Source of the DNA: an uncultured Armatimonadota bacterium
Lineage (GTDB): Bacteria > Armatimonadota > Fimbriimonadia > Fimbriimonadales > Fimbriimonadaceae
Direction: 5' to 3'
Assembly (NCBI GenBank): GCA_903833215.1
Contig: CAILEM010000059.1
Span: 1 to 42,566, forward strand
Length of the DNA: 42,566 bases
Of this stretch, positions 812-24,735 are shown piece after piece (positions within the stretch are counted from its first letter, which is position 1; each line of letters starts with the position of its first letter). The notes under the pieces were generated by a model that saw only the letters and a program-made list of their open reading frames with translations, ran no database searches and was not told where the DNA came from. Both the position numbers and the translations under genes were made by a program.

Positions 812-3199
812 TTGCCAATTACGACCTTGCTTGCGATCCTCGTCGGGAACTTGTCGGTACCGGTACTGCCCATGACAACAGCCCACCTTTTCCCTTTGTC
901 GGCGGTTCGCATCACGGGTGGACCGTTTGCTCCAGCGGTGGCGGCGAACCGCGAATACCTACTAGCGCTGGACTGTGATCGGTTGATGGCAGCTTTTCGA
1001 CGTGAAGCTGGCTTGAATCCCAGGAGGCCCTCTTACGAGAACTGGGAGAATATCGGGCTTGACGGACATACGCTTGGTCACTACCTCTCAGCTCTGGCAG
1101 ACATGATCGCAGCCGGAGCCGACACGCCGACGCATGAGTTTCAGCGAAGGCTCAACTACCTGATCGACGAACTTGAACTATGCCAAAAGGCGAATGGTGA
1201 TGGGTACATCGGTGGCATTCCCGGTAGTCGCGTCTTTTGGGGCCAAATAGCGTCAGGTGACGTGGGAAAAGTCTGGTCGAAGTGGGCGCCTTGGTACAAC
1301 ATCCACAAAACATTTGCCGGACTCAGGGATGCCTACCAAGTCGGCAGAAGCGCAAAGGCGAAAGAGCTCTTGGTGAATTTTGGAGGTTGGGCGGAGAAGC
1401 TCACCGCTGGCCTTTCCGATGATCAGATGCAGCAGATGCTGGCCGCTGAACACGGTGGGATGAATGAAGTCTTCGCGGATATCTATGCGATCTCCGGAGA
1501 TCCGAAGTTTCTCAAGCTTGCCGAGCGGTTTTGTCATACTTCTGTCCTTGATCCTCTAAAGCGCCAAGAGGATCGACTCACTGGGCTTCATGCAAACACA
1601 CAAATTCCGAAAGTGATCGGACTCGCCAGAATCGGCAATCTCACTTCGAATTCCACGGACCTTACGGGGGCGAAATTCTTCTGGAAGAACGTCACTGAAC
1701 AGCGATCGGTCGCTTTTGGGGGGAACAGTGTCTCCGAGCATTTCAACAATCCCAAGGACTTTGAGGGAATGCTTGAGCATCGAGAGGGCCCCGAAACCTG
1801 CAACACCTACAACATGCTGCGACTTACGGAACAGCTGTTCCAAGCCGATCCGAATGCTGCCTTTGCGGATTACTACGAGCGAGCGCTTTACAATCACATT
1901 TTGGCCTCCATCAATCCACAGCATCCCGGATATGTGTATTTCACACCGATCAGACCTGGACATTACCGCGTCTATTCTCAGCCTGGACTAGGAATGTGGT
2001 GCTGCTCGGGGACAGGTATGGAGAACCCTGGGCGCTACGGCCAGTTCATCTACGCCGGTGGCAAAGATGCCATTTATGTAAACCTTTTCATTTCCTCCGA
2101 ACTTCGGTTTAAGGATGCCGGGATTGCGCTGAAGCAACGCACCGAATTCCCGGAGGAAGGGGGTACCCACCTCTCACTCGAAATGAGGGCTCCCCAAAAG
2201 TTCAAAATCCTCGTCCGTCATCCGGCTTGGGTGGCGGCAGGTGCGTTTAGAGTCAAGGTCAACGGTCGAGCTGTAAAGCTTGATTCAATGCCGTCTTCGT
2301 ACGCCGCGATCGAGCGCACCTGGAAAAACGGCGACCGCATCGATGTCGCCCTTCCCATGAGAACAACGGTGGAGGGCTTGCCCGACGGGTCGGCTTGGTA
2401 CTCGATCCTCCACGGACCCATCCTTCTTGCCGCGCGACAGGGTACTGACCATCTGGACGGCTTACGGGCGGGAGATGGACGTGGCGACCACATTGCCAAC
2501 GGCCCCCTGATCCCAATGGATCAGGAACCGGCTCTCATTACGAAATCGACGGACCTCCCTAGCCACATCAAACCCGATAGATCGGCGGGTCCGAACCATT
2601 TTCGATTGCTTGGCGTGGGATATCCAGCCTCGAAGGAGGGGATAAAGCTGGAGCCGTTCTATCGGCTCCACGATGCCCGATATCAGATGTACTGGAACGT
2701 CACCACGAAAGAGGCTCTGGCCGAACGCAAAGCGAAGTTCGCCGCGATCGAAGCCGCCAAGGTCGCTCGCGATGCGGCGACAATTGACCGCGTCGCGGTT
2801 GGCGAACAGCAGCCAGAAACAGATCACCTCTTTGTTGGCGAAAATGCCGAGACCGGCATTTTTAACGGTCGAAGGTGGCGGCACGGAATGTCGTTGCAAT
2901 ATACGCTCAACTTGAAGGGCGCAACGGATGCCGTTCTCGCCGTGGAGTACTCAGGACAAGACGCTGGCCGGACCTTCGATGTTTTGGTCAATGGCGTGGT
3001 GCTTGCCACCGAGCATCTCGTTGGTGCCCATCCAGGCAAATTCTTCGAGCAGCGCTATGCAATTCCCGCCAACCTCATCTCGGCCAACAAAGATGGGGCG
3101 ATCATTGTGAAGTTTGTCGGCCGAAATAGCCTCGCCGGAGGGCTCTACGGAGTGCGCCTCCTAAAACCCAACGCTCCCGTCATTCCACCTGCACCTTGA
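812..3199 (+). CDS. GH127 beta-L-arabinofuranosidase (DUF1680 family), secreted
   Basis: A 795-residue protein of the HypBA1 family, which releases beta-L-arabinofuranose from arabino-oligosaccharides using a zinc-bound cysteine nucleophile. The motif ETCN supplies Glu328 and Cys330, and WCCSGTG supplies Cys397-Cys398. These match the acid/base Glu and the three Cys that bind zinc and attack the sugar in characterised members. Residues 1-30 are hydrophobic and signal-peptide-like; an (alpha/alpha)6 barrel spans roughly 30-420, then beta-sandwich domains, and the last ~140 residues resemble the DUF4986/DUF6805-type appendage seen in secreted homologues. The start is TTG, chosen because GGAG at 801-804 lies seven bases upstream and because it keeps the signal sequence. 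It is convergent with the LacI gene, its likely regulator. Confidence 0.92.
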   Translation: MPITTLLAILVGNLSVPVLPMTTAHLFPLSAVRITGGPFAPAVAANREYLLALDCDRLMAAFRREAGLNPRRPSYENWENIGLDGHTLGHYLSALADMIAAGADTPTHEFQRRLNYLIDELELCQKANGDGYIGGIPGSRVFWGQIASGDVGKVWSKWAPWYNIHKTFAGLRDAYQVGRSAKAKELLVNFGGWAEKLTAGLSDDQMQQMLAAEHGGMNEVFADIYAISGDPKFLKLAERFCHTSVLDPLKRQEDRLTGLHANTQIPKVIGLARIGNLTSNSTDLTGAKFFWKNVTEQRSVAFGGNSVSEHFNNPKDFEGMLEHREGPETCNTYNMLRLTEQLFQADPNAAFADYYERALYNHILASINPQHPGYVYFTPIRPGHYRVYSQPGLGMWCCSGTGMENPGRYGQFIYAGGKDAIYVNLFISSELRFKDAGIALKQRTEFPEEGGTHLSLEMRAPQKFKILVRHPAWVAAGAFRVKVNGRAVKLDSMPSSYAAIERTWKNGDRIDVALPMRTTVEGLPDGSAWYSILHGPILLAARQGTDHLDGLRAGDGRGDHIANGPLIPMDQEPALITKSTDLPSHIKPDRSAGPNHFRLLGVGYPASKEGIKLEPFYRLHDARYQMYWNVTTKEALAERKAKFAAIEAAKVARDAATIDRVAVGEQQPETDHLFVGENAETGIFNGRRWRHGMSLQYTLNLKGATDAVLAVEYSGQDAGRTFDVLVNGVVLATEHLVGAHPGKFFEQRYAIPANLISANKDGAIIVKFVGRNSLAGGLYGVRLLKPNAPVIPPAP

Positions 3200-3296
3200 T
3201 GTTGGCCATCCTGGCATTGGTTGTAGATGTCGCTTGGTGACACCGAAGCGGGTAGCACCGAGGCAACTATGGCACCTTGTCCCAGAAAGGAATTCG

Positions 3297-4325
3297 TCAC
3301 TGTCTGGCTGGCCCGGTTGAGTCTCGAACATCGAGTTGACAGTCATAAAGTGTCGACGTCACTGCATTGGCTTGTTCCTCACCCTCCGCAGCTCGAACAA
3401 GTGCGAGGAGGTGTGTAGTTGCGTCAAACGCCATTCGTTCAACGGGCTGATTGATTGAAGTCAAGCGGGGTACCGTCGTCTCGCAGAGGGGGGAAGAGTC
3501 AAACCCAACTACGGAAATGTGCTCGGGCACCTTCGTTCCGAGCCTTTCGCATGATCTGAGTACAAAGCCAGCGAGTTCATCACTAAAGCAAACGAGCGCG
3601 GTGTGGGGCGCGTCAGGCTTGGCGTATTCGCCGAGAATCCTGTGGTCTGTGTCCAAAACAATCAGATCTGGTTCTGGCAAGCCTGCTCGCCTGACGGCAC
3701 TGCGGAGCGCCTCGGCGCGGGCCTGCCCTTCGACGCTATGCTCACTCACCGGGTCAATGACGAACGCGAGGCGCTCGTGCCCCAAACCGATCAGGTGGCT
3801 TACCACCCTTCTCATGGCACCATCGTTGTCAGCACAAAACGTGGGGACACCCAATACCGTTCCCGGAGGGGCGTGCATCATGACGATGGGAATGGATGCA
3901 TGCTGAAGCGTGCTTGCAGAAGCTTCGGAGAGATCGGGCCGGCACCACAGTAGACCGTCAAATCTTCCATCCGAGATAAAGTCTGCATCACCGGACCGCA
4001 TGAGTTTCGGACAGAGGGACAGAGTGTAGTCGTGAGGAAAGAGGGCGTCCATGACGCCATTCATCACATCCGCACGGTAAGAACTGTGAAGATTGAATCG
4101 CCCAAAATTCTGAAAGACAACTGCCACCTGTCCTGTCCGCCCTTGGCGAAAAGCACGAGCGAAGTTATTTCGCTGGTAACGAAGTTCCCGAGCGGCTTGG
4201 CGAATTCGTTCGGCCTTTTCAGCGGTGACCGTCACCTTTCGACTTCCAGAGCCATTGAGCACCACACTGACCGCCATGGCCGAAACGCCCGCTCTTTCGG
4301 CGACATCACGAAGTGTTACTCTCAT
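3297..4325 (-). CDS. LacI-family transcriptional repressor
   Basis: A 342-residue protein, full length for the family. The first ~50 residues form the LacI helix-turn-helix and hinge (TLRDVAERAGVSAMAVSVVL), with the usual Val-Ser pair in the recognition helix. Residues ~65-335 form the periplasmic-binding-protein-like sugar-sensing domain, including SVVGFDSSP and a VERM segment near the C terminus. Such regulators sit on palindromic operators and leave when a sugar binds. It lies between GH127 (convergent, ~98 bp apart) and the divergent GH51-GH43 pair, so it most likely controls arabinose-releasing enzymes. The ligand cannot be read from sequence; arabinose or an arabino-oligosaccharide is inferred from context. 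The start is ATG at 4325; no good ribosome site is visible. Confidence 0.93.
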   Translation of the reverse strand: MRVTLRDVAERAGVSAMAVSVVLNGSGSRKVTVTAEKAERIRQAARELRYQRNNFARAFRQGRTGQVAVVFQNFGRFNLHSSYRADVMNGVMDALFPHDYTLSLCPKLMRSGDADFISDGRFDGLLWCRPDLSEASASTLQHASIPIVMMHAPPGTVLGVPTFCADNDGAMRRVVSHLIGLGHERLAFVIDPVSEHSVEGQARAEALRSAVRRAGLPEPDLIVLDTDHRILGEYAKPDAPHTALVCFSDELAGFVLRSCERLGTKVPEHISVVGFDSSPLCETTVPRLTSINQPVERMAFDATTHLLALVRAAEGEEQANAVTSTLYDCQLDVRDSTGPARQ

Positions 4326-4606
4326 ATCTTTGTTTGCGAAGAGATCCGTCTGCTCATGATTATTCGTTAATCTGGGCCAAGTCCAATACTGCGTTTTTCT
4401 ACGGCAGCGCAGAAAAATGCTAGCTCGGCCACTTCGGAAAATCTCGAAGCGGATTTACCATTGAGGAATCTTTCGTCGCCCACCGGCTATTCACTTCCTA
4501 TATACGGGTAAATATATCGCATATTCGCCTGGCTCTGACGCAAACTTAAGCTCAGTCACACGTAAGTTCGCAATTCGTTTACCAGGCAAACGCCACCAGA
4601 AAGATC
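4326..4606. promoter_or_regulatory. Divergent control region between lacI-type gene and GH51; candidate operator
   Basis: This 281-bp gene-free stretch separates the LacI gene (minus) from GH51 (plus) and should hold both promoters. At 4499-4517 TATATA and TATAT flank CGGGTAAA. A related block, TATATA-CGGA-TATATA, lies over the -10 of the GH10 gene at 9895-9910. The sharing of TATATACGG by two promoter regions of the same pathway suggests a common operator, but with only two sites and AT-rich arms this is weak. Confidence 0.35.
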
Positions 4607-6511
4607 ATGATCATCCTGCCGTATCTCCTCCAAATTCCTACTCGCATCACCCTCGACCTAAACAGTCCAGGTGTCGCGGTAAGTCCTATGCTCTACGGTC
4701 ACATGACGGAGGAGATCAACTACTCCTACGACGGTGGACTTTATGGCGAGCTGGTGCGTAACCGTGCCTTTCTTGACGATGCGAAGAGACCCGAACACTG
4801 GACAGCGGTGGGGCAAGGAGCGGCTATTGCCTTGGAGACATCTGGCCCAAGTTCGGCGCGCCCAGTCGCTCTTCGCGTGCGAGGAGGGGTTGCCAATGAT
4901 GGTTATTGGGGAATTCCCGTGCGTCCGTCCAATTCCTACCATCTAAGCCTCTGGGCGAAGGCCGACGGAGCCGGACCCATTGCGGCATCAATCGAATCGA
5001 AGGATGGGTCCACCGTTTTCGCAAGAGCGGAAGTGAACGGCGTTTCGGGAACGTGGCGGAAGATTACTGCAACTCTCACGACAGGCAGCGAAGCCGAACC
5101 GACAAAGGACGCACGGCTTGTCTTGCGTACAGGTGAGGCCAGAAACGTTTGGCTCAGTCAAGTTTCTCTGTTTCCGCCAACTTACAAGGGACGCGCGAAC
5201 GGTAATCGGTCGGATCTGATGAAAATGCTCGGCGACATGAAACCTCGGTTCCTGCGTTTTCCGGGCGGGAACTACCTCGAAGGGAACACGCTCGCTGACT
5301 ATTTTCCATGGAAACAGACTCTCGGACCGATTGAGGTACGCCCCGGTCATCGGTCGCCGTGGGGATATCGCTCCACTGATGGAATGGGTTTGATGGAGTT
5401 CCTGCTCTGGTGCGAGGATACGGGTGCAAAGCCACTTCTGGCTGTGTACGCGGGATATGCACTGAATGGTAGCTACATCAAAGCTGGACCCGAACTCAAA
5501 CCGTTCGTTGATGACGCTCTGGATGAGATCGAATATGTGATGGGAGGTCCAGAGACAAAATGGGGCGCCCAACGCGCCAAAGATGGTCATCCCAAGCCGT
5601 TTCCACTGGAGAGCGTGGAGGTTGGGAACGAGGATGGATTCGACAAATCGGGCAGTTATGAAGGTCGATTTGTACAATTTTACGACGCAATCAAGTCCAA
5701 ATACCCCCACCTCAAAGTGATCTCCACGACGGGCGGAAAGGACTGGCTAGGCGTGAAGTTCCCTATCACCCAGCGTAAGCCAGACCTCTGGGATGAGCAC
5801 TACTATTCCGAGGCTTGGGACATGATGGGTATGGCGACCAAGTACGACGACTACGACCGAAACGGACCGAAAGTGTTTGTTGGGGAGTGGGCGTCTCACG
5901 ATAGGATCGCTCCTTGGGCGGCTGGAGCCCAAGCGGGACCGACGCCAAACATGCGATGCACGCTAGGGGATGCCGCATTCATGACTGGGCTTGAGCGCAA
6001 TTCCGATGTGGTTGAGATGGCCTGCTATGCGCCATTGTTGGTGAACGTCAACCGAGGCGGACGTCAATGGTCGCTGAACTTGATTGGATACGACAACATG
6101 AACACCTTCGGTTCGCCGTCGTACTATGCCCAAAAGATGTTCGCTGAGAACTTGGGAGATCGCACTGTTCCCGTATCTCTTGTTGGAGTTCCGAAGCAAA
6201 CACAGGGTGAAAAGCAGCTGCCTGCCATCTTCGCCTCGGCGACTCGTGATTCGAAGAAGGGATTTGTCTACGTCAAGCTTGTGAATGCACTTCCAGCCTC
6301 TCACGAGGTCGCCTTTGACCTTCAGGGGGCGAAGGTGAGAAGTGATGCGACAATCACAGTTTTGAGTGGTGACCTAAAGGCCATGAACTCAATTGCAGAA
6401 CCTACGAAGGTCTCACCGGTTACGAAGCGGCTTCGAGGGATTGGGAAGGATTTTCGACTCAACCTGGCCCCCTATTCCGTAACCGAAGTGACCCTTCGGT
6501 GTACCAAATGA
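4607..6511 (+). CDS. GH51 alpha-L-arabinofuranosidase (first copy)
   Basis: A 634-residue protein that should cleave terminal alpha-L-arabinofuranosyl groups from arabinoxylan or arabinan. Residues ~15-200 hold the N-terminal strand and a CBM4/9-like beta-sandwich seen in long GH51 enzymes. The TIM barrel follows with FLRFPGGNYLEGN, the acid/base Glu342 in VEVGNED and the nucleophile Glu427 in FVGEWAS; the C terminus is the family's beta-sandwich. ATG 4607 is the only sensible start; the first dozen residues are hydrophobic but short, so export is uncertain. Its stop overlaps the ATG of the next gene (ATGA), so the two are translated together. It is divergent from the LacI gene. A second, distinct GH51 lies at 14.8 kb. 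Confidence 0.92.
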   Translation: MIILPYLLQIPTRITLDLNSPGVAVSPMLYGHMTEEINYSYDGGLYGELVRNRAFLDDAKRPEHWTAVGQGAAIALETSGPSSARPVALRVRGGVANDGYWGIPVRPSNSYHLSLWAKADGAGPIAASIESKDGSTVFARAEVNGVSGTWRKITATLTTGSEAEPTKDARLVLRTGEARNVWLSQVSLFPPTYKGRANGNRSDLMKMLGDMKPRFLRFPGGNYLEGNTLADYFPWKQTLGPIEVRPGHRSPWGYRSTDGMGLMEFLLWCEDTGAKPLLAVYAGYALNGSYIKAGPELKPFVDDALDEIEYVMGGPETKWGAQRAKDGHPKPFPLESVEVGNEDGFDKSGSYEGRFVQFYDAIKSKYPHLKVISTTGGKDWLGVKFPITQRKPDLWDEHYYSEAWDMMGMATKYDDYDRNGPKVFVGEWASHDRIAPWAAGAQAGPTPNMRCTLGDAAFMTGLERNSDVVEMACYAPLLVNVNRGGRQWSLNLIGYDNMNTFGSPSYYAQKMFAENLGDRTVPVSLVGVPKQTQGEKQLPAIFASATRDSKKGFVYVKLVNALPASHEVAFDLQGAKVRSDATITVLSGDLKAMNSIAEPTKVSPVTKRLRGIGKDFRLNLAPYSVTEVTLRCTK

Positions 6512-8043
6512 TCGATTTGGTAGGATTTGGGCTGCTGATGATGGCCAACAATCCGATCATATGGGCAGACGTCCCGGACATCTCGATTGTCCGCGTCGGC
6601 CACGCCTACTACATGAGCAGTACGACGATGCACATGAGTCCGGGGCTGCCCATCATGAAATCGAATGACCTCGTGCATTGGAAGTTGGTGAGCTACGCAT
6701 ATCGCACCCTCGGTGACAATGAAGCGCTAACCCTCAGCAACGGCAAAAGCGCCTATGGGAAAGGATCGTGGGCCAGCAGCCTTCGATATCACAACGGCAT
6801 GTTCTATGCCACGACGTTCTCTTCGACGACCGGCAAGACCTACATCTTCTCAACGAAGAATCCAGAAAAGACCCCTTGGAAGGAGGTCTCATTCTCGCCG
6901 TCGATTCACGATCACTCACTGATCTTCGAGGATGACGGGCGCGTATACCTAGCCCACGGGGCAGGCAACATACGTTTGCTTGAGTTGAATTCAGACCTCT
7001 CTGGTCCCAAGCCGGGTGGAATCGACAAGGTCATTGTCCCAAATGCAAGTCGGGTGGCAGGCGAGGCGATTGGCCTTCCCGCGGAAGGCTCACAGATGTT
7101 CAAGGTAAAGGGCAAGTACTACCTCTGCAATATTACGTGGCCCCGAAACGGCATGCGAACAGAAATCGTCCACCGTGCCGACAAACTTGAAGGGCCCTAT
7201 GAAGGCCGAGTCATGCTCCATGACCAAGGCGTTGCCCAAGGTGGAATGATCGACACTCCCGACGGCAAATGGTACGCCTATCTTTTTCAGGATCACGGCG
7301 CAGTGGGAAGGATTCCGTATTTGGTTCCAATGACTTGGAAGGATGGCTGGCCAGTCGTCGGCGTCGACGGAAAAGTTCCAATGACACTCGACATCCCCGG
7401 GCGGAAAAGTACCTTGTCGGGCCTCGTCGCATCAGATGAATTCAATCGAAAACCCGGTGACAACTCGTTACCTCTCGCATGGCAGTGGAACCACAATCCC
7501 GATGATCGTTATTGGTCGCTGTCGGAGCACCCCGGATCCCTTCGTCTGATAACGGGACGTGTTGATCAAGACGTCCTCCACGCACGCAACACCCTGACCC
7601 AAAGAACGTTCGGTCCCGAATGCTACGGAACCACCTCAATCGATGTTAGTTCAATGAAAGACGGTGATATCGCGGGCCTGATTGCGCTCCAAAACCACTA
7701 CGGTTTTGTCGGAGTGAAGATGGAAGGAACTCAGAAGTCTGTCGTCGTGGTGACCGCGGAGAACAACTCGGCCGTCGAAACCGCGACCGTGCCGCTAACC
7801 CAGAACCGGATTTGGTTGCGCATCGACTGCGACTTCAAGGACAGAGCCGATACGGCAGCATTTTCCTACAGCCTGGATGGCAAGAACTGGAATGTTATCG
7901 GCAAGCCGCACCACCTTCGGTACGACCTGGTCCATTTCATGGGCTGTCGCTTCGGTCTATTCAACTTCGCGACGAAGACGCCAGGTGGTCATGTCGATTT
8001 CGATTTCTTCCACATCGGCTCAGTCTTGCCGCACACCTTGTAG
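6508..8043 (+). CDS. GH43 glycosidase (beta-xylosidase/alpha-L-arabinofuranosidase type)
   Basis: A 511-residue GH43 enzyme. The five-bladed propeller covers about residues 13-320, with the catalytic base Asp24 (ADVPDISIV), the pKa-modulating Asp135 (IHDHSL) and the acid Glu193 (AEGSQMF). After ~residue 335 comes a concanavalin-like C-terminal domain typical of beta-xylosidase-type GH43s. The frame is open from a GTG at 6499, but ATG 6508 is preferred because it overlaps the GH51 stop as ATGA. No signal peptide is visible, so it may act in the cytoplasm or leave by another route. Subfamily and exact substrate (xylosyl or arabinosyl) cannot be fixed by eye. The stop codon lies inside a REP element at 8038-8073. 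Confidence 0.88.
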   Translation: MIDLVGFGLLMMANNPIIWADVPDISIVRVGHAYYMSSTTMHMSPGLPIMKSNDLVHWKLVSYAYRTLGDNEALTLSNGKSAYGKGSWASSLRYHNGMFYATTFSSTTGKTYIFSTKNPEKTPWKEVSFSPSIHDHSLIFEDDGRVYLAHGAGNIRLLELNSDLSGPKPGGIDKVIVPNASRVAGEAIGLPAEGSQMFKVKGKYYLCNITWPRNGMRTEIVHRADKLEGPYEGRVMLHDQGVAQGGMIDTPDGKWYAYLFQDHGAVGRIPYLVPMTWKDGWPVVGVDGKVPMTLDIPGRKSTLSGLVASDEFNRKPGDNSLPLAWQWNHNPDDRYWSLSEHPGSLRLITGRVDQDVLHARNTLTQRTFGPECYGTTSIDVSSMKDGDIAGLIALQNHYGFVGVKMEGTQKSVVVVTAENNSAVETATVPLTQNRIWLRIDCDFKDRADTAAFSYSLDGKNWNVIGKPHHLRYDLVHFMGCRFGLFNFATKTPGGHVDFDFFHIGSVLPHTL

Positions 8044-8073
8044 CCGCCGGATGTTTCGTGCCGGCGTCCGGGG
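8038..8073 (+). repeat. REP-like palindromic element, copy 1 (left end of RAYT unit)
   Basis: It begins with TTGTAGCCGCCGGATG and contains CGCCGG and CCGGCG as hairpin arms around a 10-base loop. Bases 8040-8067 recur exactly, in inverse orientation, at 8640-8667. The TAG at 8041-8043 is also the stop codon of the GH43 gene. Related copies occur at 8087, 22613 and 24701. Confidence 0.85.
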
Positions 8074-8086
8074 TTCTGCTGTAATC

Positions 8087-8123
8087 TTTGTAGCAGCCGT
8101 ATGGATTTTGCTGGCGCACGGAG
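8087..8123 (+). repeat. REP-like element, copy 2 (diverged)
   Basis: TTTGTAGCAGCCGTATGG followed by TTTTGCTGGCG follows the same pattern as copy 1 with several substitutions. It ends in GGAG at 8120-8123, which serves as the ribosome site of the transposase gene (ATG at 8127 or 8130). Its hairpin arms are reduced to CAGC/GCTG. Confidence 0.7.
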
Positions 8124-8126
8124 ATC

Positions 8127-8627
8127 ATGATGAACACAAACGTAATCCGTGAGCGCAAACATAGACTTCCCCGAGGCGCTTACATTGGACGACGGTCGAT
8201 CGCATTTACGGCCTGTGTAGAGGGCCGAATGAAGGTGTTTAACGAGCCCGAGATCATCTCTGCATTTGTGCCCATGCTAGAAAAGGCAGCGAGAGCATCT
8301 GAGTGCGCAGTGCCCCTTTACACCTTCATGCCTGACCATTTCCATGTACTTATGGTCGGTGAGCAGGAGACAAGTGATCTCAAAGGCGCCATGGATAAGT
8401 TCAAATTGCTATCCGGTTTGTGGTTATTCCGGTGCCGCCCTGAGCTACATTGGCAGAAAGGTTATTGGGACCACATCGTGCGGGATTTCGAGGGATGGCG
8501 GTCGCAGGCTCGGTACATTGCAGCCAATCCGTGCCGCGCAGGGTTGTGTGATGACGTATTTGCGTGGCCATACACGGGAACCATTGGGTATGAGTTGAAG
8601 GAGGTTCTTTTGGACGTGTACTTCTAG
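8127..8627 (+). CDS. REP-associated tyrosine transposase (RAYT, Y1_Tnp)
   Basis: A 166-residue protein with the RAYT hallmarks: a PRGAYI N terminus, the HUH-type metal-binding pair His71-Phe-His73 in PDHFHVLM, a YWDHIVRDFEG segment, and the nucleophile region ARYIAANPCRAGL with Tyr130. These enzymes make single-strand nicks at REP hairpins. The size is normal and all key residues are present, so it may still be active. GGAG at 8120-8123 sits three bases before ATG 8127 and six before ATG 8130, so translation may begin at the second. The gene is framed by inverted REP copies; REP-like copies at 22.6 and 24.7 kb are plausible products of this or a sister enzyme. Confidence 0.9.
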   Translation: MMNTNVIRERKHRLPRGAYIGRRSIAFTACVEGRMKVFNEPEIISAFVPMLEKAARASECAVPLYTFMPDHFHVLMVGEQETSDLKGAMDKFKLLSGLWLFRCRPELHWQKGYWDHIVRDFEGWRSQARYIAANPCRAGLCDDVFAWPYTGTIGYELKEVLLDVYF

Positions 8628-8635
8628 ATCCAGGT

Positions 8636-8669
8636 GCGTACGCCGGCACGAAACATCCGGCGGCTACAG
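8636..8669 (-). repeat. REP-like element, copy 3 (inverted, right end of RAYT unit)
   Basis: The inverse of copy 1; 8640-8667 matches 8040-8067 base for base on the other strand. It holds the CGCCGG/CCGGCG hairpin and lies between the transposase gene and the end of the GH10 gene. Confidence 0.85.
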
Positions 8670-8710
8670 AGCGAGCGGTGCGTTCCAAGGAGTCGATAGC
8701 GTTAGGGTAT

Positions 8711-9868
8711 TTACCGCTTCAGAACGTCCACGATTGCCTGATAAGCCGGTTTCGGCTTATAGTCCTTGTCAAACAGAGTCGCGGCGCCATCTCGGCCTCG
8801 GCTGAATCCTGGGATCCACGAATATTTGTCGGTGAGACCCCAGATGTTGATGCCGTGGCAATTTCTTGACGAGCGTGCCATCTGAAAGACAGAGGCGTAA
8901 GTCTTTGCCTGTAGGTCAAGGTCGGCTGGATCCTCGGGGATGAGCCCACGATTTGGGTCTCCCGCTGGCAATCGCTTCATCCGAACTGCCACATCCAACT
9001 CGGTGATCATATAGCCTAACCGCAACTTTCGGATCGCGTCGATGAGCTGATAGTGACCATCGCCAGGGGCAATCGACGTCTTGCAGTCGATGTGATACTG
9101 GAGTCCGAGTCCCGTGATCGGCGCTCCTTGCTCCTTGAGCCACTTGGCGAGGTCGAGCATATGCTGGGCTTTGGTGCCGCCACCTTCGATGCCATATTCG
9201 TTGTAGTAAAGCTCAGCTCTTGGGTCCGCTTCGTGAGCCCACCTAAACGCGAGCACCAGGAATTCAGGGCCGAGTTTTCGGAACCAGAAGCTATCGCGGA
9301 GGTTAAAGGGGTTCTTGTTGGGCCGATCGTCGATCGCTTCGTTGGCGACGTCCCACATAGCGACTTTGCCTCGGTATCGCCCGGCGACTGCCTTGATATA
9401 GTCGTGGAGTAAGCCCGAAGCCTCTTCTTTGGACATCGCGGGCCCTTTCGTTCTCAACCACTGAGGCAGCGTATAGCCTTCATCGCGAGCGTAGACCAAC
9501 ACATGGCCCCGGAGTTTGAGCCCGTGTTGCTGCGCCCAACCCTTCTTGCCCGGTTCGCCGGCGATGTAGTCGACATCTGCGAAGTGGTAGTCGTGAGGGC
9601 CGGTCCAGATTGCAGGAGGCTTCAGGTCGTTCTCGAGTTCCAACAAGTTGAAATGTTCTGCAGCGGTTGCGGCATATTTCCCACCGTCCACATCGTTCTT
9701 CAAGTTGCTTGCCGGCATTGCCGAGCCAACTATAAATCTGCGCTTCTGAGCAAGGCTCCTTAGATTCAGGTCTTGGCTTTGCCACGATGGGCATGCATTC
9801 GGACTAGAGAGAGAGGCAGAAGTCAAAGAAATTCCGGCAGAAATCAAAGTGCAGAGTGAGATCATCAT
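8711..9868 (-). CDS. GH10 endo-1,4-beta-xylanase, secreted
   Basis: A GH10 TIM-barrel enzyme of 385 residues that should cut the xylan backbone internally. From ATG 9868 the acid/base is Glu177 (WDVANEAID) and the nucleophile Glu290 (MITELDVAV). YNEYG and GLGLQYHID are also family signatures, and the end INIWGLTDKYSWI is typical. Residues 1-20 are a plausible signal peptide. The frame is open from 9928, but that start lies in the promoter; 9868 follows a TATAAT -10 box (9893-9898, minus strand) by a normal leader carrying AAAGGG. The domain is catalytic only, with no carbohydrate-binding module. It is divergent from the esterase operon at 10027 and so shares a control region with it. Its 3' end abuts the REP unit. 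Confidence 0.94.
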   Translation of the reverse strand: MMISLCTLISAGISLTSASLSSPNACPSWQSQDLNLRSLAQKRRFIVGSAMPASNLKNDVDGGKYAATAAEHFNLLELENDLKPPAIWTGPHDYHFADVDYIAGEPGKKGWAQQHGLKLRGHVLVYARDEGYTLPQWLRTKGPAMSKEEASGLLHDYIKAVAGRYRGKVAMWDVANEAIDDRPNKNPFNLRDSFWFRKLGPEFLVLAFRWAHEADPRAELYYNEYGIEGGGTKAQHMLDLAKWLKEQGAPITGLGLQYHIDCKTSIAPGDGHYQLIDAIRKLRLGYMITELDVAVRMKRLPAGDPNRGLIPEDPADLDLQAKTYASVFQMARSSRNCHGINIWGLTDKYSWIPGFSRGRDGAATLFDKDYKPKPAYQAIVDVLKR

Positions 9869-9892
9869 TGAATAGGCACGCCCTTTGTTGAG

Positions 9893-9910
9893 ATTATATA
9901 CGGATATATA
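9893..9910. promoter_or_regulatory. GH10 -10 box overlapped by TATATA-CGGA-TATATA dyad
   Basis: On the minus strand TATAAT (9893-9898) lies about 24 bases before the GH10 start. It is overlapped by the dyad 9895-9910, with perfect six-base arms and a CGGA centre. A repressor bound here would block GH10 and could affect the divergent esterase operon. TATATACGG also occurs at 4499-4507 ahead of GH51. Arms made of TATATA are low-complexity, so binding is only inferred. Confidence 0.4.
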
Positions 9911-10011
9911 GTGGATCGCTTTTCGCAAGTGATATATTGCTTAAGGCGGGTGTTCTAGCTATCGCGCTCCAGGATTAATGGACCAAAGGCACGGTTGTGC
10001 TTGCCCGTTAG

Positions 10012-12242
<2,231 letters not shown>

Positions 12243-12246
12243 ACTT

Positions 12247-14805
12247 ATGAATCTCATCCCCGTTATCGCTTTACTCTTTGCGCCCACCGCGCCCTATCAG
12301 GACGCTAATTTGCCAGCAGCAGATCGGGCCAAGGATTTGGTCTCGCACATGACTGCCGACGAGAAAATCGCCCAATGCATGATGGACGCTCCTGCCATCC
12401 CACGGCTGGGCGTTCCGAAGTATCACTACTGGAGTGAGGCGCTCCATGGGATTGCGAATAACGGATTTGCCACGGTCTTTCCCCAAGCAATCGGTCTTGC
12501 CTCAACTTGGGATCCAGAGTTGATGCATGGCATCGCAACCATTATCAGCACCGAAGCCCGAGCCAAATATGCGGCGGCGATTGCGCGCAATGATCGCTCT
12601 ATCTTCAAGGGAATAACGCTGTGGTCTCCCAACATCAATATCTTCCGAGACCCCCGATGGGGACGCGGCCAGGAGACATACGGTGAGGACCCATTTCTCA
12701 CGAGTCGCATGGGCGTTGCGTTCGTGACTGGAATCCAAGGCGACGATCCCAACTATCTGCGCGCCGTCTCAACCCCAAAGCACTTTGCCGTCCATAGCGG
12801 ACCTGAACCACTACGTCACGGATTCGATGCAAAGGTGACCGAGAAGGAGCTTCGAGAGACTTACCTTCCCGCGTTCGAAGCCTGCGTGCGTGAAGGAAAG
12901 GCAGCGAGTGTTATGAGCGCGTACAGCGGTTTCAACAGCAAGCCCGCCACCGGTAACCCATGGCTACTGACAACGTTGCTGCGAGACGAGTGGGGATTCA
13001 ACGGCGCGGTTGTGAGTGACGTCGATTCTGTTGGCGATATCTTGTACGGCCACCACGCGGTGAAGGATCTTGCCGAGGCAAGTGCGATGGCGATCAAAGC
13101 GGGCAATGACGAATGTAGCGGCGGCAGCTATCAGGCACTTAAAGCAGCTCTCAGCCGTGGGCTGATCACCGAAGCCGACCTTGATCGAGCAGCCACCCGG
13201 CTTTTCACCTTACGATTCCGACTGGGCATGTTCGACTCGACCGAAAAATGCGCCTATAACGGGATTAAGCCAACCGATCTTGACACCCCTGAGCACGAGC
13301 AACTTGCTTTGAAGGCAGCGAGAGAGAGCCTGGTGCTTCTCAAGAACGATGGCATTCTTCCTCTCGATCCAACGAAGTTCAAACACGTTGCGGTGATGGG
13401 TCCCGTGGCCACCAGTCAAGCGGTTCTGGTCGGTAATTACAATGGAACTCCGGCTAGGCCAGTAACCCTGCTAGACGGGATTAAGCGGAAGCTTGAAGGT
13501 AAGGGCATCACAGTTGAGTATGCCGAAGGAAGTCGACTCGTCAACCGCGGCACTGGCGTTGGCCCGATGCCAAGGGGGGCGACTTACGTCGACGCTGCCA
13601 AATCAGCAGCCGGTCTCAAGGGCGAAGTATTCAATAATCCTAACCTGGAAGGCACGCCAGTTGGCACCCGCACCGATCGATTCCTAAACCTCCACTGGTC
13701 GACCGACCAGCCTCAGGCAGGGTTGCCTAATGAGAGTTGTTCGATCCGGTGGTCGGGCTACCTTGTTTGGCCGAACAACGAATCCGTCACGTTAGGCGTG
13801 GTCACCGATGGCGGCGTGCGTTTGTATCTCGACGACAAGTTGATCCTCGATCAGTGGAAGAGCCGAGAAACCAAGACTCATCGAGTTGACTATGCGTTCA
13901 AGAAAGGCGCCACCGTCAAAATTCGACTGGAGTACTCCCATGCCCAGGGAGGTGCTTCGATTCAATTGGGAAGCGACGCCGTCGAGAAGGTGACCGATTA
14001 CTCTCAGGCAGAAGAACTCGCTCGGCGTTCAGATTTGGTGGTTCTGACTTTGGGAATCACCCCTCAGCTAGAAGGCGAGCAAATGCCGGTTCGATACGAG
14101 GGATTTGCTGGCGGAGATCGCACCAGTATCCTCGTCCCCGCGCCGCAACGAGAGTTGCTCCGGCGCGTCGCTGCGATTGGCAAACCTGTGATCGTCGTCT
14201 TGACGACGGGAAGTGCCGTTTCCTTCGACACCAAACTCGCCAACGGAATTCTGCTGTCGTGGTACTCAGGAGAGCAGGGCGGAACTGCGATGGCAGAGGC
14301 GCTTGTCGGTGAAACGAACCCAGCTGGACGATTACCGGTGACGTTCTATCGCTCCGACAAAGACCTCCCTCCGTTCGAGAATTACCATCTTGACGGCAGG
14401 ACATATCGGTTCTTCAAAGGGCGCGCGCTGTTCCCATTCGGATATGGCCTCAGCTATGCAAAGTTTAAGTATGGCCAACCAAAGGTATCCAAATCGGAAA
14501 CTGGACACGTCGTTACCTTGCCTGTCACGAACTCTAGCCGAATCTCCGGCGACGAAGTTATCGAGATTTACGCACGCTATGATCATCCCCTGAAGTCAGA
14601 TCCTATCCGCCGACTTGTTGGGTTCAAACGCGTTTCGCTGATGGCAGGAGAGACAAGGGCCATCCAGGTCGATGTCACCGACTGGTCTCTGCGGAGTTGG
14701 GATGAGACTCAGCACAAATATGCCGTCCGACCGGATGGATACAGGCTCGAGATTGGTCCCCATTCTGACAAGGTGCTCGCCGTCGCTCGACTTCAAGCCC
14801 CTTAG
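12247..14805 (+). CDS. GH3 beta-xylosidase/glucosidase with inserted PA14 domain, secreted
   Basis: An 852-residue GH3 enzyme. A short signal peptide is followed by the TIM-barrel domain, with the nucleophile Asp258 in VVSDVDSVG, and an LWSPNINIFRDPRWGRGQET block typical of xylosidase-type GH3s. The second alpha/beta sandwich domain is interrupted at about residues 455-580 by a PA14 domain (WSGYLVWPNNES, LYLDDKLILDQW), which shapes the active site in related enzymes. A fibronectin-III-like domain ends the protein. The frame is open from 11986, but ATG 12247, four bases after the previous stop, gives the signal peptide and avoids a 260-bp overlap. In this operon it most likely releases xylose from xylo-oligosaccharides. 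Confidence 0.92.
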   Translation: MNLIPVIALLFAPTAPYQDANLPAADRAKDLVSHMTADEKIAQCMMDAPAIPRLGVPKYHYWSEALHGIANNGFATVFPQAIGLASTWDPELMHGIATIISTEARAKYAAAIARNDRSIFKGITLWSPNINIFRDPRWGRGQETYGEDPFLTSRMGVAFVTGIQGDDPNYLRAVSTPKHFAVHSGPEPLRHGFDAKVTEKELRETYLPAFEACVREGKAASVMSAYSGFNSKPATGNPWLLTTLLRDEWGFNGAVVSDVDSVGDILYGHHAVKDLAEASAMAIKAGNDECSGGSYQALKAALSRGLITEADLDRAATRLFTLRFRLGMFDSTEKCAYNGIKPTDLDTPEHEQLALKAARESLVLLKNDGILPLDPTKFKHVAVMGPVATSQAVLVGNYNGTPARPVTLLDGIKRKLEGKGITVEYAEGSRLVNRGTGVGPMPRGATYVDAAKSAAGLKGEVFNNPNLEGTPVGTRTDRFLNLHWSTDQPQAGLPNESCSIRWSGYLVWPNNESVTLGVVTDGGVRLYLDDKLILDQWKSRETKTHRVDYAFKKGATVKIRLEYSHAQGGASIQLGSDAVEKVTDYSQAEELARRSDLVVLTLGITPQLEGEQMPVRYEGFAGGDRTSILVPAPQRELLRRVAAIGKPVIVVLTTGSAVSFDTKLANGILLSWYSGEQGGTAMAEALVGETNPAGRLPVTFYRSDKDLPPFENYHLDGRTYRFFKGRALFPFGYGLSYAKFKYGQPKVSKSETGHVVTLPVTNSSRISGDEVIEIYARYDHPLKSDPIRRLVGFKRVSLMAGETRAIQVDVTDWSLRSWDETQHKYAVRPDGYRLEIGPHSDKVLAVARLQAP

Positions 14806-22612: not shown

Positions 22613-22635
22613 TTGTAGCCACCGGATGGGTCTTG
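22613..22635 (+). repeat. REP-like element, copy 4 (truncated)
   Basis: TTGTAGCCACCGGATGGG followed by TCTTG matches the left half of the REP elements at 8.0 and 24.7 kb. The right half with CCGGCG is missing; the sequence runs directly into the esterase fragment, so the REP marks a rearrangement breakpoint. Confidence 0.7.
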
Positions 22636-22636
22636 C

Positions 22637-22890
22637 TTGAAGCCCAAACCAATCATTGTAACCATCGGCAGTCAAGATGCAATCGTCATTCCCGCAATGC
22701 AGCGCCGATCGTTCAACGTCGTGCGCATGGTGAATCAGGCGGCCGATAAAGGCAAGCCCCTTGGACCTAAAGGCACGATGTTCAATTGTCATGCTCCGTC
22801 TGTTCGTTGGGAACACGACGGAGGCATCGCTTTTCCCCACGATTCGGTTCCGTCAATGGTCGCCCTCTTCAGGTCGCTGAAATCCCGATT
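22637..22890 (+). pseudogene. Truncated copy of the PHB-depolymerase-type esterase (C-terminal third)
   Basis: From LKPKPIIVTIGSQDAIV to DSVPSMVALFRSL this aligns without gaps to the last 81 residues of the esterase at 18431-19213; by eye about 56 of 81 positions are identical. The catalytic Asp (SQDAIV) is kept, but the catalytic His is Ile (GGIAFP for GGHAFP). The N-terminal two thirds with the nucleophile are absent and a REP fragment abuts the break. The frame stays open to 22948, across the 3' end of the TPR gene on the other strand. It cannot be an active esterase. Confidence 0.8.
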
Positions 22891-24700: not shown

Positions 24701-24735
24701 TGTAGCCACCGGATGGGTTTTGCCGGCGTTCGGAG
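24701..24735 (+). repeat. REP-like element, copy 5
   Basis: TGTAGCCACCGGATGGG followed by TTTTGCCGGCGTTCGGAG agrees with the other copies; CCGG/CCGG form the hairpin core. It lies between scrap B and the GH-A gene, some 50 bases before that gene's start. Confidence 0.75.

Follow-up and report, generated by a model that had tools for sequence, protein, structure and literature searches.

The stretch of DNA analysed here (the window, 42,566 nucleotides) very probably carries a REPtron: a RAYT gene present in a single copy and framed by inverted, GTAG-tagged hairpins (REPs) that would serve as its own cleavage substrate. The host belongs to the Armatimonadota, family Fimbriimonadaceae. The parts of the unit, its neighbours and the related sites of the window are the following.

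6499-8043, forward strand: GH43 glycosidase gene with a GH43_C2 domain (open reading frame and domain match), ending at the TAG at 8041-8043
8039-8072, forward strand: left REP, with a GTAG foot, a 1-nt linker, a 6-bp stem (CGCCGG/CCGGCG) and a 10-nt loop; 8039-8067 is identical to the right REP
8041-8043, forward strand: TAG stop codon of the GH43 gene, within the GTAG foot of the left REP
8089-8122, forward strand: third REP, diverged, lying downstream of the left REP and ahead of the RAYT start; 4 of 6 stem positions pair
8120-8123, forward strand: GGAG, from its sequence a possible ribosome-binding site, in the tail of the diverged REP
8127-8627, forward strand: RAYT gene (Y1 HUH transposase like TnpA-REP), 165-166 aa, with the DHFH motif and Tyr129 intact
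8635-8668, reverse strand: right REP, inverted; 8640-8668 is identical to the left REP
8711-9928, reverse strand: GH10 gene, the convergent right-hand neighbour, outside the REP-RAYT unit
22614-22637, forward strand: 5' half of a REP of the same class, with 23 of 24 nt as in the copy at 24701
24701-24734, forward strand: solitary REP of the same class, between two divergent long open reading frames; 5 of 6 stem positions pair

The open reading frame of the RAYT is intact and starts with the ATG at 8127 or the one at 8130. Its product scored above the cut-offs of Pfam Y1_Tnp (29.1 bits, cut-off 23) and, narrowly, of NCBIfam REP_Tyr_transpos NF047646 (84.3 bits, cut-off 80), which bears out the preliminary description of a complete-looking RAYT between REPs. 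The protein shows the motifs DHFH and WQ and the tyrosine motif YIAANP, and H70, H72 and Y129 are among the residues invariant across 22 aligned relatives. By sequence profile, its closest solved relative is 4er8 (TnpArep, E 1.5e-14), which is also the top fold match of the predicted model (pLDDT 91.5; E 4.2e-10, TM 0.65). In the tree of 104 RAYTs, the window protein joins others of its genus in a set of four rows that is supported (96/85) and takes in two genomes besides that of the window; a wider, less well supported group of 35 rows from the family (88/93) encloses this set. A search of plasmid records with the protein returned only three weak relatives.

The two ends of the unit share an exact inverted match of 29 nt (8039-8067 on the forward strand, 8640-8668 on the reverse strand). 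Their perfect identity had been noted before, with a length of 28 bp that is thus one short. The wider pairing of the ends spans 42 nt and is 88% complementary, and the loop common to the REPs of the window is ATGTTTCGTG. These near-perfect ends give the unit the look of a transposon, and it could be a common IS200/IS605-like insertion sequence, transposed in one piece and with the 29-nt repeats as its termini, yet several observations make this improbable. The unit occurs once in the genome, where the other RAYTs are only 41% identical to it, and a search of 85 genomes of the family found no close homologue, the best being 51% identical. Moreover, the IS200 model of NCBIfam gave 18.2 against a cut-off of 55, and the tyrosine motif is not of the form Y---Q. 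Given the same single copy and distant homologues, the identical ends do not prove the recent activity suggested earlier. Even if nothing moved recently the ends should match, since selection preserves the agreement between the REPs that flank published RAYTs, as reported in the accessible text of PMC2817692.

We confirmed that the left REP provides the stop codon of the GH43 gene. Eight orthologues of the glycosidase (58-73% identity) terminate 0-8 residues beyond the last aligned residue. The GH43 of the window extends 4-8 residues beyond it in comparison with the same eight, and therefore shows no truncation: in these alignments, the left REP did not shorten the protein. Neither GH10 nor RAYT was found beside the GH43 orthologues in the stretches compared. 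The surroundings, from 812 to 14805, form a cluster of arabinoxylan type, with GH127, a LacI regulator, an arabinofuranosidase, GH43, GH10, an esterase and GH3.

We then counted the REP class across the genome with a covariance model built from 21 sites. Four of these lie in the window, and the training sites match by construction. The 62 matches with E no higher than 10 fall into 41 clusters; 53 of them have E no higher than 0.1. In 34 clusters, holding 54 matches, the similarity to one reference element extended in every case beyond the REP itself. This element, a composite repeat some 200 bp in length whose ends are long and inverted, is present in 34 copies in genome G000 (for example at L223, L211 and L241). 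Its core usually measures 167 bp between GTCAAACAGTTTTGG and its inverse, with a conserved outer stretch in addition (20 copies with both ends). Within it, two REP-like hairpins, whose stems differ, stand inverted to each other. A 26-mer from the outer part matched the genome 41 times and the control not once. We had considered the composite to be a simple REPIN, and dropped this when its flanks were found to be conserved. No transposase with the ends of the composite was found among the end-motif matches. Outside the composite and the window, the model matched four sites (on C102, C139, C36 and C43), three of which bear the foot and loop of another REP class, the one on C139 being intermediate. 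The remaining four matches are those of the window at 8039, 8089, 8635 and 24701.

A pattern search gave a similar picture: of the 13 zero-mismatch sites among the matches listed, of 105, the composite holds nine; the other four are in the window contig, and one of them is the half copy at 22614. Since the control gave 42 against the 105, chance accounts for most of the weaker pattern matches that fall outside the composite. Judged by sequence match, the free, well-matching copies of the class are at most 17 kb away from the RAYT. Away from the unit itself there are only two, both in the window contig and one of them a half, so that they lend little weight to an amplification by the window RAYT. 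Likewise, with 54 of 62 matches inside the composite, copy number is no sign of RAYT activity. The genome count proposed in the preliminary description as a guard against a chance repeat thus succeeds in letter, the REP being found elsewhere, but most of what it counts belongs to another repeat. In another genome, G020, seven of eight matches to the REP model lie within 1 kb of its own RAYT, as would fit a REPtron.

The preponderance of the composite, together with the extension of every such cluster beyond the REP and the clean result for the outer 26-mer, raises the question of whether this REP class is mainly a part of the composite, spread by another enzyme through the long inverted ends, with the RAYT a bystander that stands beside the hairpins or shares them. 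We regard this as unlikely, given that the REPs of the window lack the flanks of the composite and frame the RAYT exactly, and that the loop ATGTTTCGTG is absent from the composite copies among the matches listed. A related and rather doubtful possibility, compatible with a REPtron, is that the RAYT spreads its REP class locally, over some 17 kb, and that the class became widespread in the genome through two hairpins captured in a composite of about 200 bp moved by another enzyme. A sister RAYT lineage of this genome would meanwhile maintain some 170 REP copies, many of them in free REPINs.

Support for a genuine hairpin comes, in the sequences compared, from compensatory changes and not from folding stability. 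Single REP hairpins folded no better than shuffled sequence (z between -0.59 and -0.87). Among 15 REPs chosen with 10-nt loops (13 from RAYT flanks or contigs and two from the composite), stems paired at 87 of 90 positions, against a maximum of 73 in 2000 re-dealings of the arms. The paired positions of these REPs, which come from the window, the composite and the RAYT flanks of relatives, carry C-G, G-C, A-T and T-A as alternatives. In the alignment of REPs from the genome itself, seven cells had changed on both sides, a value reached in none of 500 shuffles; such changes affected two pairs, a count that 221 of the 500 shuffles also reached. Pairing is imperfect in the REPs at 8089 (4/6) and 24701 (5/6). 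The weak single-strand folding scores are all that favours an inverted repeat standing by chance next to an unrelated gene, a reading already refuted by the copies elsewhere and rendered negligible by 29 exact nucleotides, further sites of the same class and the match to the RAYT family.

The third REP, at 8089-8122, shares 27 of its 34 nucleotides with an independently found dispersed copy (L001); the closest background 34-mer on either strand of the window shares 20 with that copy. The earlier claim of an extra, diverged REP that ends in GGAG before the RAYT is therefore sound. The GGAG lies 3 nt upstream of the ATG at 8127 and 6 nt upstream of that at 8130. Motifs of this kind (GGAG, GAGG or AGGA) precede 9 of the 22 long open reading frames of the window, with start codons called mechanically. 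A GTAG-like foot followed by a perfect hairpin occurs in the 70 nt upstream of 7 of 24 RAYT starts, compared with 195 of 4800 random positions (4.1%) in the same loci; among the seven, the hairpin of L086 is of another, GC-rich kind, and the count leaves out the imperfect one of the window. These counts fit a recurring layout in which a REP stands in the RAYT leader. According to PMC3733652, in the text accessible, REP hairpins could reduce RAYT expression, and whether REPs drive RAYT expression is unknown. Overall, what the preliminary description observed at the locus is confirmed, and how it interpreted the locus is partly supported.

If the unit is a REPtron, its working can be sketched by analogy with the RAYT of E. 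coli. The protein would bind the single-stranded REP hairpin, use Tyr129 to nick it close to the GTAG foot, and copy or move DNA of REP size, not its own gene. The nearby copies at 8089, 22614 and 24701 would be local products of this process. The left REP stands at the natural end of the GH43 gene, where it only takes the place of the stop codon, and the diverged REP in the leader may tune translation of the RAYT. The separate composite repeat carries the distant copies of the same hairpin.

The genome encodes seven Y1 transposases, three of them of RAYT type. The RAYT on C99 stands among a REP class, GTAGTCGNCGNTGATCGTACC, with 170 matches against none in the control. Its inverted pairs mostly measure 120-125 bp and have variable spacers, i.e. 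they are REPINs. This population is found in G000, for example at L303-L315 and at C99:31022-32138, and also includes tandem arrays of about 73-76 bp. A class of this size with clear REPINs shows that REP/RAYT systems thrive in Armatimonadota. Stop codons given by REPs are uncommon in it: one of 59 distinct sites ends an open reading frame of at least 100 aa. Around the RAYT on C109 there is a REP class with 44 matches (none in the control), whose paired positions are A-T (32), T-A (6), G-T (3) and G-C (2), with one unpaired C-A.

Elsewhere in the family, many RAYTs likewise lie between inverted REPs of their own. At L078, L080, L082, L083, L085, L070 and L071 (genomes G056 and G057) the feet of these REPs are GAGG, GTGG or GGAG-like, not GTAG. 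The GTGG foot is already published; GAGG and GGAG-like feet were not found in the accessible portions of the REP literature. One RAYT homologue, at L092:2444-2911 in G057 and L093:2464-2913 in G056, no longer has its HUH motif (now PSQF[RH]) or its catalytic tyrosine. It is identical at 135 of 150 positions between the two species (dN 0.055, dS 0.31), and no inverted REP frame was found around it, L093 lying near a contig end. From these sequences it is possibly a domesticated, catalytically dead RAYT.

These results document REP/RAYT systems at scale in the Fimbriimonadaceae, of a little-studied phylum. Three RAYTs beside REP classes of very different copy number in one genome make a natural comparison for the limits on REP spread. 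Counts of REP motifs may mislead when the REPs sit inside another repeat.

Compared with the REPtrons described for E. coli (TnpA-REP, 4er8) and for the RAYTs of Stenotrophomonas (PMC2817692), the unit has the same composition as far as the accessible text goes: a Y1 HUH transposase, two inverted REPs with GTAG feet, a single-copy gene and REPs elsewhere in the genome. It differs from these relatives in its Armatimonadota host, in its few free REPs, all near the gene, and in the distant copies held in a composite repeat. Against the motif descriptions in Table 1 of PMC6006769, the nearest likeness is to TnpA-Y1 subclass 2.5 (Bertels group 3, from Xanthomonads and Pseudomonads): both have DH[LF]H, WQ and a GTAG foot that a single nucleotide separates from a short stem. 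Lengths are similar, with 165 aa in the window and a median of 151 in the subclass, and foot, linker and stem (GTAG + C + 6 = 11 nt) fall within its range of 10-13. Unlike the subclass, the window RAYT reads YIAANP where YI[VI]ANP is given, one position being different, and it comes from a different phylum. Regarding the stop codon, the TAG of GTAG ends the upstream open reading frame both here and in PMC3733652, where this overlap is a habit of GTAG REPs, with no notable difference in the part of that paper available. The REPINs of PMC3116915 resemble the inverted pairs of about 120 bp formed by the other REP class of this genome; the unit of the window is itself no REPIN, its REPs enclosing a gene rather than a short non-coding spacer. 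The preliminary description held that RAYT/REP systems are best known from gammaproteobacteria. They have also been published beyond that class. A literature search joining RAYT with Armatimonadetes, Armatimonadota or Fimbriimonas gave none among the matches listed, which is no proof of absence. The accessible texts of PMC2817692, PMC3733652 and PMC6006769 between them cover inverted REP framing, stop codons given by REPs, RAYTs in several phyla, REPtrons that seemingly do not move as a unit, and the subclass motifs. Inverted framing and REP-given stops are thus already published, and the unit is ordinary in mechanism. What it usefully adds to these systems is the host phylum, three RAYTs with REP classes in one genome, and a composite repeat that inflates the REP count.
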